Translations under genes and position numbers: made by a program
Shown here: in pieces, positions 8,522 to 53,330 of the stretch
Layout: each line of letters starts with the position of its first letter
Position numbering within the stretch: the stretch's first letter is position 1
The notes under the pieces: generated by a model
The model's input: only the letters and a program-made list of their open reading frames with translations
Databases searched by the model: none
Told to the model about the DNA's origin: nothing
Origin: Devosia aquimaris
Lineage (GTDB): Bacteria; Pseudomonadota; Alphaproteobacteria; Rhizobiales; Devosiaceae
Reading direction: 5' to 3'
Length of the DNA: 64,000 bases
Assembly: GCF_020169335.1 (NCBI RefSeq)
Contig: NZ_JAIEZN010000001.1
Span: 1,911,805 to 1,975,804 of the forward strand

Positions 8522-8917
<396 letters not shown>

Positions 8918-36606: not shown

Positions 36607-37557
36607 ATGCACGCCAAAGTCGTCATCATCGGTTCCGGCCCGGCCGGATACACCGCGGCGATCTATGCCGCGCGTGCGATGCTTGAGCCCCTGATGATCC
36701 AGGGTCTGCAGCCGGGCGGCCAATTGACCATCACCACCGATGTCGAAAATTATCCCGGTTTCGCCGACGTCATCCAGGGCCCCTGGCTGATGGACCAGAT
36801 GAAGGCCCAGGCCGAGCATGTCGGCACGCGCATCGTCAATGACATCATCACCCATGTCGATTTTGACGTCCGCCCGTTCAAGCTCACCGGCCATGACGGC
36901 GAAGTCTATACAGCCGACAGCGTCATCATCGCCACCGGCGCCCAGGCCAAGTGGCTGGGCCTGCCCAGCGAGCAGAAGTTCCAGGGCTTCGGCGTTTCCG
37001 CCTGCGCCACCTGCGATGGCTTCTTCTATCGCAACAAGGAAGTCATCGTCGTCGGCGGCGGCAATACCGCTGTCGAGGAAGCGCTGTTCCTCACCAATTT
37101 CGCCTCCAAGGTCATCGTCGTGCACCGTCGCGACGAATTCCGCGCCGAGCGCATCCTGCAGGATCGCCTGTTCAAGAACCCCAAGATCGAAGTGCGCTGG
37201 AACACCGAGATCGCCGAAGTTGGCGGCTCGGCCATGCCGCCCTCGGTCAATTCGGTCACCCTGCGCGATCTGGCGGCCAACCGCACCTATGAGCAGCCCA
37301 TCGACGGCGTGTTCATCGCCATCGGTCATGCCCCGGCCACCGCTATCTTCGCCGGCAAGCTCGACATGAAGCCCGGCGGCTATCTGCAGGTGAAGGCCGG
37401 CACCACTGAAACCAATATTCCCGGTGTCTTTGCCGCCGGCGATGTGACCGACGATGTCTATCGCCAGGCCATCACTGCGGCGGGCATGGGCTGCATGGCC
37501 GCGCTGGAGGCAGAACGCTTCCTGGCTGAACACGAACTCGCCGAAGCGGCGGAGTAG
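36607..37557 (+). CDS. trxB: TrxB, thioredoxin reductase
   Basis: NADPH-dependent flavoenzyme that reduces thioredoxin. It is 316 residues long. It shows the FAD loop GSGPAGYTAAIYAAR, the redox-active ACATCDG (CATC pair, about residue 137), the NADPH loop GGGNTAVEEALFL, and the C-terminal FAAGDVTDDVYRQAITAAGMG. It is followed after 33 bp by a LysR regulator, the same order as trxB-lsrB in rhizobia, so redox homeostasis is the likely shared theme. Confidence 0.98.
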   Translation: MHAKVVIIGSGPAGYTAAIYAARAMLEPLMIQGLQPGGQLTITTDVENYPGFADVIQGPWLMDQMKAQAEHVGTRIVNDIITHVDFDVRPFKLTGHDGEVYTADSVIIATGAQAKWLGLPSEQKFQGFGVSACATCDGFFYRNKEVIVVGGGNTAVEEALFLTNFASKVIVVHRRDEFRAERILQDRLFKNPKIEVRWNTEIAEVGGSAMPPSVNSVTLRDLAANRTYEQPIDGVFIAIGHAPATAIFAGKLDMKPGGYLQVKAGTTETNIPGVFAAGDVTDDVYRQAITAAGMGCMAALEAERFLAEHELAEAAE

Positions 37558-37590: not shown

Positions 37591-38484
37591 ATGCTCGACT
37601 GGGACAAGCTCCGGATTTTCCACACCGCCGCCGAGTCGGGCAGTTTTACCCACGCCGCCGAAAAGCTGGGCATGAGCCAGTCGGCCGTCAGCCGCCAGAT
37701 TTCCGCCCTCGAGGATGATCTGGGGCTCAAGCTCTTCATCCGCCACGCCCGCGGCCTGGTGCTCACCGAAGTGGGTGAGCAGCTGTTCCGCACCGCGCAC
37801 CGCATGCATTGGGAACTCCAGCAGGTGGAGACCCAGATGTCGGAAAGTCAGGATGTCCCCACCGGGCCCCTGATCGTCACCACCACCGTGGGTATCGGCT
37901 CCACCTGGCTCAGCTCGCGGCTTGATGAATTCCTCAAGCTCTATCCGCTCATCCAGCTCGAGATCCGCCTCAACGACGCCGAGCTCGATCTGGCCATGCG
38001 CGAGGCCGACGTGGCCATCCGCCTGCACCGGCCCAACCAGTCCGAGATGATCCAGCGCAAGCTGTTCACCGTGCACAACCACTTCTATGCGTCGGTCGAC
38101 TACATCGAGGAATTCGGCATGCCCAAGACGGCCGACGAGCTGGACGATCACCGCATCGTCACCTTCGGCGAGCCCGTGCCGTCCTATCTGGGTGACATCA
38201 ACTATCTCGAGCGCATGGGCCGCAGCGATTCCAGCCCGCGCCGCACCACGCTCAAGGTCAATGCCATCTATGGCATGATGCAGGCCTGCCGCGCCGGCAT
38301 CGGCATCGCCATGCTGCCCGACTATGTCACCGAAAAGGAAGATCGCCTGGTCCAGGTCCTGCCCGAGACCGAGCTGCCGGCCTATGAGGCTTTCTTCGTG
38401 TACCCGCCTGCGCTCAAGAACTCCAAGCGCGTCGGCGTGTTCCGCGACTTCCTGGTCGGCAAGGCTCGCGAGTGGAGCTTCTAG
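37591..38484 (+). CDS. lsrB: LsrB/VtlR-type LysR regulator
   Basis: LysR-family regulator of 297 residues with the HTH SFTHAAEKLGMSQSAVSRQISALE and a periplasmic-binding-like effector domain. The opening MLDWDKLRIFHTAAESGSF and its place directly behind trxB match LsrB of Sinorhizobium and VtlR of Brucella/Agrobacterium, known regulators of redox and envelope traits and, for VtlR, of small RNAs. Only one cysteine is present in the whole protein (in MQACRAGIG), so a multi-cysteine disulfide switch is not possible within one subunit. The gene name is assigned from synteny and the N-terminal match. Confidence 0.85.
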   Translation: MLDWDKLRIFHTAAESGSFTHAAEKLGMSQSAVSRQISALEDDLGLKLFIRHARGLVLTEVGEQLFRTAHRMHWELQQVETQMSESQDVPTGPLIVTTTVGIGSTWLSSRLDEFLKLYPLIQLEIRLNDAELDLAMREADVAIRLHRPNQSEMIQRKLFTVHNHFYASVDYIEEFGMPKTADELDDHRIVTFGEPVPSYLGDINYLERMGRSDSSPRRTTLKVNAIYGMMQACRAGIGIAMLPDYVTEKEDRLVQVLPETELPAYEAFFVYPPALKNSKRVGVFRDFLVGKAREWSF

Positions 38485-39411: not shown

Positions 39412-40404
39412 ATGCTGAACATCTACACCGTCTCCGGCGACCACCTGGCCCGCCTCCCCCTCGCCCCCGCTTCCGTGCCCGACGATGCCGCCCAGGCCAT
39501 CTGGTTCGACCTGGTCAATCCCACCCGCGACGAAGAACATCTGGTCGAGCAATGCCTGGGTATCCAGGTGCCCACCCGCGACGAGATGAAGGACATCGAG
39601 CCCTCCGCCCGCCTCTATGCCGAGGCGGACGCCGAGTTCATGACGGCCACTGTCCTGAGCAAGATGCACGAGCACGACCCCATCAAGGTGCCCGTCACCT
39701 TTGTGCTGCGCGGCACGGCGCTGGTCACCATCCGCTATGCCGAGCCCCTGCCCTTTGTCACCTTCGAGGCCCTGGCCACCCGCCCCGGCGGTCGCCCACT
39801 GACCACCGGCGAACATGTCATGGCGGGCCTGCTGGATTCCTTCATCGATCGCATCGCCCAGGTGCTCGAGACCGCCGGCGAGGATCTCGACGCCATTTCG
39901 CGCGAGGTCTTCCGCAACAAGGTCAAGGGCGCCACCCGCAAGTCGCGCAACCTGGAAGGATTGATCGAAAAGATCGGCAACAAGGGCGACATGCTCACCC
40001 TGGTGCGCGAAAGCCTGATCACCATCCTGCGCCTCACCACCTTCCACCAAACCCGCCTGCCCGGCACGCCGCGCAGCGCCCGCGAGGTGCGGCAGGATTT
40101 CAAGGTGCTGCAGCGCGACGCCCAGGCCCTGGCCGATCACGCCGGCTTTCTCTCCAACAAGGTCAATTTCCTGCTCGATGCCACCCTGGGCCTGATCAAT
40201 CTGGAGCAGAACCAGATCATCAAGATCTTCTCGGTGGCGGCCGTGGTCTTCCTGCCGCCCACGCTGGTCGCCTCCATCTACGGCATGAATTTCCAGGTCA
40301 TGCCCGAGCTCAACTGGCAGTTCGGCTATCCTGCTGCCCTGTTTGCCATGGTGGCGTCGGCCGTCCTGCCCTACCTTTTCTTCAAGCGGCGCGGCTGGTT
40401 GTGA
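39412..40404 (+). CDS. corA: CorA-family divalent cation transporter
   Basis: Magnesium (or cobalt/nickel) channel of the inner membrane. It is 330 residues: a large cytoplasmic alpha/beta funnel with a long stalk helix, then two C-terminal membrane helices. The ion-selectivity motif YGMN is in ASIYGMNFQVMPEL, and the C-terminus has the usual basic end (FFKRRGWL). A 209-bp non-coding leader precedes it, in which I recognised no known magnesium riboswitch. It is immediately upstream of the small-RNA cluster. Confidence 0.94.
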   Translation: MLNIYTVSGDHLARLPLAPASVPDDAAQAIWFDLVNPTRDEEHLVEQCLGIQVPTRDEMKDIEPSARLYAEADAEFMTATVLSKMHEHDPIKVPVTFVLRGTALVTIRYAEPLPFVTFEALATRPGGRPLTTGEHVMAGLLDSFIDRIAQVLETAGEDLDAISREVFRNKVKGATRKSRNLEGLIEKIGNKGDMLTLVRESLITILRLTTFHQTRLPGTPRSAREVRQDFKVLQRDAQALADHAGFLSNKVNFLLDATLGLINLEQNQIIKIFSVAAVVFLPPTLVASIYGMNFQVMPELNWQFGYPAALFAMVASAVLPYLFFKRRGWL

Positions 40405-40517
40405 GCGCCCGGCCTGCCGCCGTAAGCGCCGGAAAAACCATGCCAAATCCGGCCCGGACGACTGAAATGTTCTAAAATCTATGCAGCCTCTGCATAGCTA
40501 TTATACGCGATGCCTTA

Positions 40518-40546
40518 TTGTTGAGCAAAGCGACACCCCATATATG
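40518..40546 (+). promoter_or_regulatory. Promoter of small RNA unit 1
   Basis: TTGTTG (40518-40523) and TATATG (40541-40546) are separated by 17 bp, placing initiation near 40552, just ahead of the first anti-SD hairpin. The same hexamer style (TTGCTG-17-TATATG) precedes unit 3. Confidence 0.55.
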
Positions 40547-40551
40547 CCTCC

Positions 40552-40666
40552 CAGCACAGCGGGCGCCTCCCTCCTCCCTTGCGCCCTCTGCGTTCCCTCC
40601 TTGTGGGAACTCGTTCCCGCAAATATGTGGCTCCGCTCTCCCCTCGAGCGGGGCCACATGTGTTTT
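40552..40666 (+). ncRNA. Anti-Shine-Dalgarno small RNA, unit 1
   Basis: About 115 nt, no credible protein. Hairpin 1, GGGCGC/GCGCCC (40561-40566, 40581-40586), carries CCTCCTCCC at 40570-40578 in its loop. Hairpin 2, GTTCCC/GGGAAC (40592-40610), has a TCCTTGT loop. A 13-bp stem ATGTGGCTCCGCT/AGCGGGGCCACAT (40625-40637, 40647-40659) with a CTCCCCTCG loop ends in TGTTTT and looks like the terminator. The loop motif is complementary to ribosome binding sites, as in the cuckoo/CcsR/alpha-r14 RNAs of alphaproteobacteria. Ends are estimated from promoter and terminator. Confidence 0.75.
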
Positions 40667-40710
40667 GGCCATCCTGCACTCAGCGCATGGCTGACATACG
40701 ACACAGATGA

Positions 40711-40738
40711 TTGCCTACTGAGTGAGTCGAGTTCATAA
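40711..40738 (+). promoter_or_regulatory. Promoter of small RNA unit 2
   Basis: TTGCCT (40711-40716) and TCATAA (40733-40738) with a 16-bp spacer lie just before the GGTGTTGC arm that opens unit 2. The match to consensus is moderate. Confidence 0.4.
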
Positions 40739-40742
40739 GGAG

Positions 40743-40934
40743 GGTGTTGCTGAGGCGCGTTCCATTTCCTCCTCCCTTGGAACAAGTATCGCAACACCGA
40801 GCCACGATCGTATCCTCCTCCCTCGATCACGGTTCACCGGCAGAGCGCATCTCCTCCTCCCTTGCTCTCTGCCTCACTTTCGATTTGGCTTCGGCCCTAT
40901 CATTGGCCCTGTCCTCGGACAGGGCCTTTTTTTT
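40743..40934 (+). ncRNA. Anti-Shine-Dalgarno small RNA with three CCTCCTCCC loops, unit 2
   Basis: About 190 nt. An outer stem GGTGTTGC/GCAACACC (40743-40750, 40791-40798) encloses hairpin TTCC/GGAA with CCTCCTCCC at 40768-40776. Hairpin GATCG/CGATC (40806-40828) has the motif at 40814-40822. Hairpin GGCAGAGC/GCTCTCTGCC (40839-40873) has it at 40853-40861. A GGC-TTCG-GCC mini-hairpin follows, then a textbook terminator GGCCCTGTC-CTCG-GACAGGGCC with eight Ts (40905-40934). Architecture is shared with unit 3, so the two are paralogous. Each loop could pair with an mRNA Shine-Dalgarno site. Confidence 0.85.
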
Positions 40935-41015
40935 CGTCCGCTTTCGCCCCGGCGCGCTGCATGGCTGACAACTTGTCGCTGTGCAAAATGCATGGCAGGC
41001 ATGTTGACCTATGTC

Positions 41016-41044
41016 TTGCTGACCAAACGGTCAAAATCTATATG
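41016..41044 (+). promoter_or_regulatory. Promoter of small RNA unit 3
   Basis: TTGCTG (41016-41021) and TATATG (41039-41044) are 17 bp apart, giving a predicted start at about 41051, exactly where the outer TGTCGC arm of unit 3 begins. Confidence 0.6.
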
Positions 41045-41050
41045 TGTACC

Positions 41051-41247
41051 TGTCGCTGGCGACGCCGCTCCGTATCCTCCTCCCTCGGACCCGCGTTTAG
41101 GCGACACGAACTTGAGCCGTATCCTCCTCCCTCGGCTTGGGTTCACCGGTCTGATGCATCTCCTCCTCCCTTGCATCGGGCCAAAACTTCAGATTTGGCT
41201 TCGGCCCTATCATCAGGCTCCAACTTCGGTTGGAGCCTCTTTTTTTT
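41051..41247 (+). ncRNA. Anti-Shine-Dalgarno small RNA with three CCTCCTCCC loops, unit 3
   Basis: About 197 nt and a paralogue of unit 2. The outer stem TGTCGC/GCGACA (41051-41056, 41101-41106) encloses TCCG/CGGA with CCTCCTCCC at 41076-41084. AGCCG/CGGCT presents it at 41123-41131, and GATGCA/TGCATC presents it at 41162-41170. The terminator is GGCTCCAAC-TTCG-GTTGGAGCC followed by TC and eight Ts (41216-41247). Stem sequences differ from unit 2 while pairing is kept (covariation), and the loop motifs and the segment around GATTTGGCTTCGGCC are identical. That pattern is strong evidence for a conserved RNA structure. Confidence 0.87.
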
Positions 41248-41349
41248 GCCCCGGCACATCCCGGCCGCGTCCCGGGCGCCCGATTCTGCATGGCAGCGTT
41301 TCCCAATTGACGAATTGTCGCACCCGCCTCCGGGCGCGATAACTGGCCT

Positions 41350-41450
41350 GTAAGTTCTGCGGCGGTCGTGGTGCCGCACCTCCAAAGTCACTGGCTCCGG
41401 CCAATGACTCCTGGCCCTGCCCATCCCCTCGGGCAGGGCCTTTCCTTTTT
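41350..41450 (+). ncRNA. Diverged small RNA, unit 4
   Basis: About 100 nt between a weak promoter match (TTGTCG 41315-41320, GATAAC 41338-41343, 17-bp spacer) and a strong terminator GGCCCTGCCC-ATCCCCTC-GGGCAGGGCC followed by TTTCCTTTTT (41413-41450). Internal hairpins are GCGGC/GCCGC and AGTCActGGC/GGCCaaTGACT. It lacks an exact CCTCCTCCC but has ACCTCC and GACTCCTGG unpaired or in loops. It may be a diverged member of the same cluster. It lies 144 bp ahead of the next gene. Confidence 0.6.
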
Positions 41451-41593
41451 CCCCGGACATGTCACTTCTGCCCACCGACCGGCAATTATTGCCGCGCGGC
41501 AGCCGCACTCGCCCGTCACCCCATTGATTTATCGGCGTAATTTTCAGGCACGGCCCTTGCATAGGATTTGTTAACCGATTGCAGGAGCCCACA

Positions 41594-42706
41594 ATGGTTG
41601 CCGTCAACGCCACCTATCCCAGCACCAGCTATCTCAATCTCGCCACCACCGTGGCGGCCAACCTGGCTGCCAGTAACAAGGACTCGGGCGCCGGCACCAC
41701 GTCGACCACCACCACCGAAGCGCCCGCCACCTCGATCACGCTGTCCAGTGCCGCCCAGGCCGAATTGGCCAAGAAGGATTTCGCCACCGTCCTGGCCGAC
41801 GCCCATGCCAAGCTGCTCGCCCTGCTCAAGGACGCCAAGCGCACCAGCCCCCTGCAGGATGGCAAGCTGGCGCTCGACATCTCGAGCCTGGATCCGCGCG
41901 AGCTCTATGCCATGTCCAGCGACAAGAGCTTCGCTCCCGAAGAGCGCGAGGCCGCCGGGCTCGAGATGCAGCGCCGCTTTGAAAGCGCCATGTCCGGCCC
42001 CGCTGCCGTCGCCAAGGTCACCGGCGACTACACTGGCCTCTACAAGGCCGCCGCCACCTATCTCGATAGCCTGGGCGACGAGGAGAAGAACGGCACCGAC
42101 TGGATTGCCGGCCGTGACGCCATTACGGAAGGCCTCAAGCAGCTGCAGTCCGATCCCAAGACCCTGCCCGATGCCGGCGACAACGATCCGGTGGCGCTCT
42201 ATCTCGCGCTCACCGAGGCCGGCCAGACCCAGCAGCAGGACATCAAGGATGTCGCCACCGGCGCCCGCGCCTCGCTCGACGCGCTCTATGCCAAGGCGAT
42301 CAAGGACGGCAAGGTGCCCACCTTCAACAAGCAGACCACGGTCGGCACCTATGTCGACCTGTCCAGCTTCCCCAGCCGTACCCTCTCCGCCATCGCGCTC
42401 AACACCGAGAACAAGTTCGCGCCCGAAGAAGTCAATGCCGCCAGGGGCGCCCTGCGCACCAAGAGCGGCGCCGCGCTGCTGGCGGGCTTCCAGAACGCCG
42501 CCAAGTCCAGCGACCCCACCGCCTTCAGCCAGAACATCATTTCGATCTATTCCTCGATGAGCGACGAGGAGCGCCAGGCCGCCGGCTGGAGCAGCGATTT
42601 CTATGCCGCCGCTCTCGCCAGCTACCAGACCACCAACAAGCTCACCGAAATGTTCGCCCAGGCCGGCGGCAGCAGCACCAGCTTCCTGAGCTGGATGGGC
42701 AAGTAG
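41594..42706 (+). CDS. Unrecognised protein with an internal duplication
   Basis: It is 370 residues; the ATG has AGGAG six bases upstream. I do not recognise the family. A Ser/Thr-rich N-terminus (about 60 residues, STTTTEAPATS) precedes a helical body. Two segments resemble each other: around SSLDPRELYAMSSDKSFAPEE (about residue 100) and around SSFPSRTLSAIALNTENKFAPEE (about residue 260), suggesting a duplicated domain. A third related element near the end reads YSSMSDEERQAAG. There is no signal peptide or membrane helix. It follows the small-RNA cluster and precedes a family B palindrome that can act as its terminator. Composition matches genomic neighbours. Confidence 0.75.
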   Translation: MVAVNATYPSTSYLNLATTVAANLAASNKDSGAGTTSTTTTEAPATSITLSSAAQAELAKKDFATVLADAHAKLLALLKDAKRTSPLQDGKLALDISSLDPRELYAMSSDKSFAPEEREAAGLEMQRRFESAMSGPAAVAKVTGDYTGLYKAAATYLDSLGDEEKNGTDWIAGRDAITEGLKQLQSDPKTLPDAGDNDPVALYLALTEAGQTQQQDIKDVATGARASLDALYAKAIKDGKVPTFNKQTTVGTYVDLSSFPSRTLSAIALNTENKFAPEEVNAARGALRTKSGAALLAGFQNAAKSSDPTAFSQNIISIYSSMSDEERQAAGWSSDFYAAALASYQTTNKLTEMFAQAGGSSTSFLSWMGK

Positions 42707-45337: not shown

Positions 45338-45637
45338 ATGCACAAAACTACGTCGCCCCGGCAGAAAAGTTTCAAGCGCTTCGCCATTGGTTCTACGGTT
45401 GTGGTGGCCGTTGCCTCCGGTGGCGCGCTGCTTGCCGGGGTCGGCACCGCTTCTGCGGCCACGCTGATTGCTCAACCCGACGCCCAGATCGCCATCTTCA
45501 TGGTGCCCCTGACGCTTCTGGTCCTGGCGACCATGATCGAAGTGGCCCGCTTCGCCCTGCGCGGTCCCCTCCCTGACAGTGCACCGGCGCGCATCCGCAA
45601 GCCTCGCCATTGGTCCCCCGGCCGCCGCGAAGGCTGA
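45338..45637 (+). CDS. Small two-helix membrane protein
   Basis: It is 99 residues with a basic start (MHKTTSPRQKSFKRF), a hydrophobic segment (AIGSTVVVAVASGGALLAGVGT), a second helix (QIAIFMVPLTLLVLATMIEVARF) and a basic tail (RIRKPRHWSPGRREG). The first segment could also be a signal peptide ending ASA-AT. No family is recognised. A rho-independent terminator 46 bp downstream supports a real transcript. The ribosome site is weak. Confidence 0.6.
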   Translation: MHKTTSPRQKSFKRFAIGSTVVVAVASGGALLAGVGTASAATLIAQPDAQIAIFMVPLTLLVLATMIEVARFALRGPLPDSAPARIRKPRHWSPGRREG

Positions 45638-45682
45638 CGCCTCCCCTTTCTCATCGACCTCCCTCCAGTCGTATGACCCTTC

Positions 45683-45706
45683 GCCGGCCCTCTGGGCCGG
45701 CTTTTT
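45683..45706 (+). terminator. Rho-independent terminator
   Basis: GCCGGCCC-TCT-GGGCCGGC (45683-45701) followed by TTTTTCTTT. It ends the transcript of the 99-residue membrane protein gene. Confidence 0.88.
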
Positions 45707-45798
45707 CTTTGCCGCAGCGGAACACGCCAACCCCGCTCAACGCCAGCCCCAGCCAGAATATCCAGATCGTTTCGCCTTCAGATGGGCACGGCTCGATC

Positions 45799-53134: not shown

Positions 53135-53330
53135 GGGGAATATCCAGGCGTAAAGGCGCTGCAATGCCGCTTCGGCACGCGGTCGACCATGTTTGCGTTT
53201 ACTGGAGTGTCCGGCGGATTGGCGGCCGGAAGAGCCACCCGGATTTGCACCGGGTCCGATTTGACTGGACGCTTTCTGCACGTCCCTGCCGCCTGATGCA
53301 AGACCCTGTCGCGCAACTCTGGTCCGCACT
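53135..53330 (-). promoter_or_regulatory. Hairpin-rich leader of the SulP gene
   Basis: On the minus strand the segment before the SulP start can form, in order, GGACG/CGTCC with a 9-nt loop (53285-53267), ACCCGG-TGCAAAT-CCGGGT (53255-53237), a GGC/GCC-rich arm, and TGCCG-AAG-CGGCA (53177-53165). This could be a structured regulatory leader. I do not recognise a known riboswitch class. Confidence 0.4.

Follow-up and report, generated by a model that had tools for sequence, protein, structure and literature searches.

In A. tumefaciens and S. meliloti, the genes abcR1 and abcR2 adjoin lsrB (PMC7486931, PMC8844928), and vtlR has been described behind trxB (PMC7486931). LsrB/VtlR activates AbcR1 through a box with the consensus GCAT-N3-TG-N3-T (PMC7486931, PMC8844928), which in the S. 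meliloti promoter PabcR1 is placed at -61 to -49 (PMC8844928). According to PMC10746234, LsrB also activates the S. meliloti sRNA NfeR1, whose promoter PnfeR1 has an LsrB box reading TGCA-N6-GCAT and whose anti-Shine-Dalgarno (aSD) loops silence the mRNAs of ntrB and of ABC-transporter components at the ribosome-binding site; the same source describes ar14 RNAs as having variable stems and, in each of three hairpins, the ultraconserved CCUCCUCCC. SmelA075, with three motif hairpins, and SmelA099, with four, are on record (PMC3927594), cuckoo RNAs have been described as having two to four hairpins in which the loop is conserved and the helix sequence is not (PMC4504443), and the CcsR RNAs of Rhodobacter are, in the account of PMC10253847, cut from a single transcript shared with the DUF1127 gene ccaF1. 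In the open-licence literature we found no work on this kind of RNA in Devosia.

The stretch of Devosia DNA analysed here (64 kb, hereafter the window) carries an array of four predicted sRNA units about 2 kb downstream of lsrB. At least units 2 and 3 are aSD sRNAs of the cuckoo/ar14 kind. This type of RNA is already known; what looks new is the place of the array beside lsrB and the LsrB-type boxes before the units. The features of the locus are the following.

36607..37557 (+), trxB, thioredoxin reductase (TIGR01292, 411.3 bits; cut-off 343.45)
37591..38484 (+), lsrB/vtlR orthologue, LysR-type, proposed activator (PDB 9hh1_A, 363 bits, residues 2-297)
39412..40404 (+), corA-like transporter gene (Pfam CorA, 160.6 bits)
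40492..40504 (+), GCATAGCTATTAT, box of LsrB type belonging to unit 1, differing from GCAT-N3-TG-N3-T by one step, 48 nt upstream of the -10
40517..40545 (+), unit 1 promoter (predicted, read by eye), ATTGTT-N17-ATATAT
40552..40664 (+), unit 1 sRNA, predicted ends (folds; covariation, 32 sequences)
40570..40578, 40592..40600 and 40627..40657 (+), motif loop, unpaired GTTCCCTCC and terminator hairpin of unit 1 (folds)
40685..40697 (+), GCATGGCTGACAT, box of LsrB type belonging to unit 2, identical to the consensus, 48 nt upstream of the -10
40710..40738 (+), unit 2 promoter (predicted, read by eye), ATTGCC-N17-TCATAA
40745..40934 (+), unit 2 sRNA, predicted ends (fold z -7.06; covariation, 34 sequences)
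40768..40776, 40814..40822 and 40853..40861 (+), motif loops of unit 2 (fold)
40876..40904 (+), ACTTTCGATTTGGCTTCGGCCCTATCATT, 3' element of unit 2, conserved (alignment A2)
40905..40934 (+), terminator of unit 2, loop motif-free (terminator scan)
40990..41002 (+), GCATGGCAGGCAT, box of LsrB type belonging to unit 3, differing from the consensus by one step, 48 nt upstream of the -10
41015..41043 (+), unit 3 promoter (predicted, read by eye), CTTGCT-N17-CTATAT
41050..41246 (+), unit 3 sRNA, predicted ends (fold z -6.94; covariation, 37 sequences)
41076..41084, 41123..41131 and 41162..41170 (+), motif loops of unit 3 (fold)
41186..41214 (+), conserved 3' element of unit 3 (alignment A1)
41215..41246 (+), terminator of unit 3, TTCG loop, motif-free (terminator scan; alignment A1)
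41288..41300 (+), GCATGGCAGCGTT, box of LsrB type belonging to unit 4, differing from the consensus by one step, 49 nt upstream of the -10
41314..41342 (+), unit 4 promoter (predicted, read by eye), ATTGTC-N17-CGATAA
41349..41450 (+), unit 4 sRNA, predicted ends, with unpaired CACCTCC and no exact motif (fold z -4.03; conservation in 28 of 32 loci)
41413..41440 (+), terminator hairpin of unit 4

The LysR gene at 37591-38484 is an LsrB/VtlR orthologue, judging by its match to structure 9HH1, the LsrB of A. tumefaciens (PMC11975290); among the NCBIfam matches listed for its product there is no LysR model above cut-off. It stands directly behind trxB, and the corA product scores 192 bits with the NCBIfam corA model, just below the cut-off of 200.75. 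A 375-aa ORF downstream of the array (41579-42706, +) has no Pfam or NCBIfam match, and a homologue of it lies downstream of the array in 19 of 30 loci, its own locus included. Rfam further recognises in the window a sul1 RNA (53205-53260, -, 73 bits) and a class A RNase P RNA (8524-8915, -, 312.9 bits).

Exact copies of CCTCCTCCC occur seven times in the window, all on the plus strand (40570, 40768, 40814, 40853, 41076, 41123 and 41162), as the first-pass annotation had reported, and none was found outside the array on either strand of the 64 kb. Across 100 shuffles of the window the mean count was 0.93 and the maximum 3, none reaching seven, and the whole genome contains 26 matches, seven within the array and 19 elsewhere. 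All seven copies lie in hairpin loops in the folds of units 1, 2 and 3, again in agreement with what had been claimed. Compared with shuffles, unit 2 (-72.7 kcal/mol, z -7.06) and unit 3 (-81.8 kcal/mol, z -6.94) are strongly folded with every motif in a loop, and their common layout, including the GATTTGGCTTCGGCCCTATCAT stretch ahead of the terminator, is as previously described. Unit 1 consists of a single motif hairpin and then two hairpins, and unit 4, which has no exact motif, folds with -50.4 (z -4.03). The view that there are four units, each bounded by a promoter and a terminator, held in part: a terminator scan flagged every unit except unit 1, and an E. coli-type promoter scan of the array returned no match, although -35 and -10 boxes with a 17-nt spacer can be read by eye before all four units. 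A loose pattern derived from these promoters matches the genome at six places, of which half are at the array and half inside or beside ORFs; its reversed control matches nowhere.

An Rfam search of the window at the gathering threshold gave no match at the array. The first-pass annotation had pointed to Rfam models of this kind of RNA, and the comparison bears out the kinship without reaching family membership: the nearest family of units 2 and 3 is ar14 (RF02344; 34.9 and 39.7 bits, below the gathering cut-off of 58.8), with CcsR1 (RF02791; 21.5 and 27.9 bits, below the cut-off of 65.3) in second place. The ar14 cut-off is passed at three of 20 family loci scanned, which come from two other genera of the family (L091, 62.2; L083, 61.0; L071, 59.0). 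Units 2 and 3 display the three hairpins of ar14, with CCUCCUCCC unpaired in each and variable stems, which units 1 and 4 do not, and they also agree with the description of the cuckoo family, having two to four conserved-loop hairpins with unconserved helix sequence; the array differs from that family (Reinkensmeier and Giegerich 2015) in that unit 1 has one motif hairpin and unit 4 no exact one. Three motif hairpins per molecule had been put forward as a distinct trait, which they are not, since ar14 has been published with three, and SmelA075 and SmelA099 with three and four (PMC10746234, PMC3927594). The likeness to ar14/NfeR1 extends to the CCUCCUCCC loops, the variable stems, their number per molecule, a sigma-70-type promoter and an upstream LsrB box (PMC10746234). 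In contrast, the third motif of the ar14-positive locus L114 lies inside the terminator loop, whereas the three motif hairpins of Devosia units 2 and 3 are followed by the conserved element and a motif-free terminator; the link of the Devosia array to lsrB is a further difference. Motif-bearing terminators are also present in L071 and L083 of the own family, and the 3' element around GATTTGGCTTCGGCCCTATCAT is intact in most rows of alignments A1 (unit 3) and A2 (unit 2) and replaced in a few.

With CcsR1-4 of Rhodobacter sphaeroides the array shares the tandem arrangement of CCUCCUCCC sRNAs, but the Devosia units have separate predicted promoters and terminators and no DUF1127 gene was found in the gap among ORFs of 60 aa or more. 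None of the ten ORFs (63-206 aa) overlapping the gap has a Pfam match above cut-off, and DUF1127 is absent from them, as had been stated before, as well as from corA and the 375-aa ORF. Two loci from another family (L118, 1271-1435; L121, 1272-1436) present an ar14-positive cuckoo locus behind a small DUF1127 gene (PF06568, 56.5 and 44.6 bits, respectively), unlike the Devosia array. Five genomes of a genus of another family (g382; G689, G730, G749, G765 and G795) contain a longer multi-hairpin form, with six triple patterns overlapping in series and hence about eight CCTCCTCCC motifs in some 280 nt.

The triple-motif pattern at the spacing of the array was found in 107 of 136 genomes of the Devosiaceae, representing 9 of 16 genera, and 57 of the 75 genomes of the window's genus have exactly two such places; a reversed control pattern was non-zero in just one of the 136 (G057). 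The pattern was also present in 60 of 297 genomes of an order sample, 12 of these from the own family, and, in a class-wide sample into which few members of the order were drawn, in one of 385, the own genome only. A related pattern retrieved 56 stretches from a named collection, mostly Devosia records and eight from Rhodobacteraceae. For alignments A1 and A2, 36 and 33 relatives, approximately one per locus, were picked by hand from 152 distinct units, a pool that excluded eight Rhodobacteraceae and nine other-family loci. In unit 3 (37 sequences) 87.6% of cells pair in the structure of the window and 31 of 56 pairs have changed on both sides, the corresponding values being 93.2% and 26 of 51 for unit 2 (34 sequences) and 83.2% and 19 of 32 for unit 1 (32 sequences). 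The covariation scores of units 3, 2 and 1 (0.295, 0.268 and 0.322) exceed all 500 shuffles (0.146, 0.150 and 0.221) and all slid partners (at most 0.089, 0.085 and 0.165), the slide control giving an advantage to the tested structures because they were derived from the window sequence. Units 1, 2 and 3 are thus structured RNAs that covary across Devosiaceae; the compensatory pairing claimed by the first-pass annotation is upheld, and rather than the decay without covariation that it had named as a refutation, the relatives show stems covarying around unchanged loops. The constancy of the seed GTTCCC[CT]CC in the unit-1 alignment (A3) is partly selection, since its sequences were retrieved with that seed. 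RNAalifold recovers the motif hairpins of units 2 and 3 unaided. The outer stem of unit 3 is exceptional in that just 34.9% of its cells pair (A1); in A2 (unit 2) the figure is 88.2% for helix 1, a helix combining the outer and inner stem of its hairpin. Unit 4 has a blastn match (E <= 1e-3) in 28 of 32 other loci, often to its 3' half only.

The earlier annotation, right about the RNAs in part, missed their setting, namely the linkage to lsrB and the boxes shared by the promoters. The regulator gene was found in 126 of 136 family genomes, and the linkage count covered 112 of the 114 with a motif place, two genomes lacking an lsrB match (G057 and G094) being omitted. In 109 of these Devosiaceae lsrB and the array share a contig, and in every one (109/109) the array lies downstream on the same strand at 203 to 4259 nt (median 1332); in the other three of the 112 the two are on different contigs. 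For 14 family genomes with lsrB no array place is listed, the two-motif pattern having been run on only some. Among the 56 named stretches lsrB is upstream on the same strand in 35, the other 21 being the eight Rhodobacteraceae and 13 in which the first motif is 16-2759 nt from the start of the stretch.

The box typical of the LsrB/VtlR regulon is present exactly before unit 2 and one step off before units 1, 3 and 4, at the nearly fixed spacing listed above, and with the T in front of it the unit 3 box takes the PnfeR1 form, TGCA-N6-GCAT. Among relatives, an exact box stands before 28 of 30 copies of unit 2, 17 of 33 of unit 3 and 17 of 30 of unit 1, being missing before about half of the copies of the latter two, as against 53 of 4285 control windows. 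Unit 4, identified by a strict terminator pattern at 13 of 33 loci, has the one-step-off box at all 13 and the exact one at a single locus (1/13). A second palindromic element, GACA-N3-TGTCGCTG, lies upstream of the unit 3 box (40960-40985) and at the same place before unit 3 in most of 17 relative loci displayed; it could be a further operator or what is left of a 5' end that was duplicated.

The loop motifs are complementary to GGGAGGAGG. At two of the 19 motif sites outside the array the complete 9-nt complement is placed 6 and 5 nt ahead of an ATG. These two, both preceding genes for binding-protein-dependent transport permeases, are the only clear ribosome-site complements among the 19; three further sites precede GTG codons of open frames. 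We favour, with a probability of roughly 0.6, the reading that the array comprises four separately transcribed aSD units controlled by LsrB and silencing mRNAs with GGGAGG-type leaders, those of ABC transporters included. LsrB would bind each box, some 60 to 48 nt upstream of the predicted start, and from there help the sigma-70 polymerase, and every unit transcript would stop at its own terminator. The variable stems would keep the CCUCCUCCC loops open (one in unit 1, three in each of units 2 and 3) so that they could base-pair to ribosome-binding sites of the GGGAGG type and prevent translation; the putative targets include ABC-transporter mRNAs, and the multiple loops and units would supply dose and redundancy. 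The first-pass annotation had proposed that the array may titrate many mRNAs, whereas the action published for NfeR1 is silencing at the ribosome-binding site (PMC10746234). Since NfeR1 is described as silencing its targets with the same loops (PMC10746234), the most likely action of the array may be to keep such mRNAs from being translated while LsrB is active. The motifs, folds, covariation, conservation, lsrB linkage and box spacing are direct findings; that the array is transcribed, bound by LsrB and repressive towards its targets is what we infer.

A gap without any RNA genes, made up of repeats, terminators or short ORFs that escaped recognition, is very improbable. Intergenic DNA frequently contains inverted repeats and terminators, but the strong covariation with unchanged loops, the occurrence of the triple pattern in nine of 16 genera and the ten gap ORFs devoid of Pfam matches all speak against it. 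An ordinary cuckoo cluster served by housekeeping or general stress promoters, next to lsrB merely through an inherited neighbourhood of no regulatory meaning, is a more serious competitor, even if we consider it unlikely. Its favour lies in the Rhodobacter CcsR RNAs, which are reported to be made from an RpoHI/RpoHII promoter (PMC10253847), and in other families of the order: the comparison used 44 of the 48 other-family positives of the order sample (G541, G683, G696 and G717 omitted), all 44 with the triple pattern have LsrB, and by eye 11 have the two on one contig, at least 186 kb apart, and 33 on different contigs. Against such a cluster speaks the published LsrB box, defined in other organisms, which occurs at fixed spacing before the units far above its frequency in control windows.

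The Devosia locus thus has a known kind of RNA in a new arrangement, a conserved lsrB-tied array where several related families have AbcR. Like AbcR1/AbcR2 (ar15, RF02345), it consists of tandem aSD sRNAs directly behind trxB-lsrB, and its boxes are of the type through which LsrB/VtlR activates AbcR1 (PMC7486931, PMC8844928). Under stricter filters that lose weak matches, a search of 49 genomes with ar15 gave nothing in the 32 Devosiaceae and matches in 12 of the 17 other genomes, above cut-off in five. In ten of the 12 a match lies 104-783 nt beyond lsrB on the strand of that gene. Among 14 control genomes one had a match, below cut-off. The own genome has only sub-threshold ar15 matches, the best (20.4 bits; cut-off 40 bits) away from the array, and ar15 is not listed at the array in the Rfam comparison. 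We tentatively suggest, at somewhat less than even odds, that in the trxB-lsrB slot of Devosiaceae AbcR was replaced non-orthologously by an unrelated cuckoo/ar14-type array while the regulator stayed the same. Unit 1 might instead be a far-diverged AbcR, the slot having been extended by ar14-like units and not exchanged, an idea we regard as doubtful. Its parts follow the order of AbcR (aSD hairpin, unpaired GUUCCC stretch, hairpin, terminator), a unit-1 model matches AbcR loci at the AbcR position in six of six cases (14.3-23.1 bits) and decoys in one of 18 (weakly, E 7), and unit 1 of locus L084 scores 39.3 bits with suhB, which belongs with ar15 to clan CL00108. The same model, however, matches other-family cuckoo loci equally well (9/9, 12.9-26.7 bits), an AbcR model, itself weak (8 sequences, 10 pairs), finds unit 1 neither in the window nor in any of 25 Devosiaceae loci, and the best Rfam score of unit 1 of the window is with ar14 (25.5 bits). 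Elsewhere in the window, 45628-45711 (+) is weakly matched by two models, that of unit 1 (16.6 bits, E 0.0036) and that of AbcR (22.6 bits, E 0.035); the stretch ends in a strong GC-rich terminator-like hairpin, and the match may be to the terminator only.

If control of the array by LsrB holds true, a single redox-responsive regulator would, depending on the family, drive different aSD modules from one chromosomal slot. The equivalence of AbcR and cuckoo RNAs in tuning nutrient uptake, and their mutual replacement, would then become testable, and the Devosia RNAs of the cuckoo/ar14 kind would gain a regulator, a box and unit borders.
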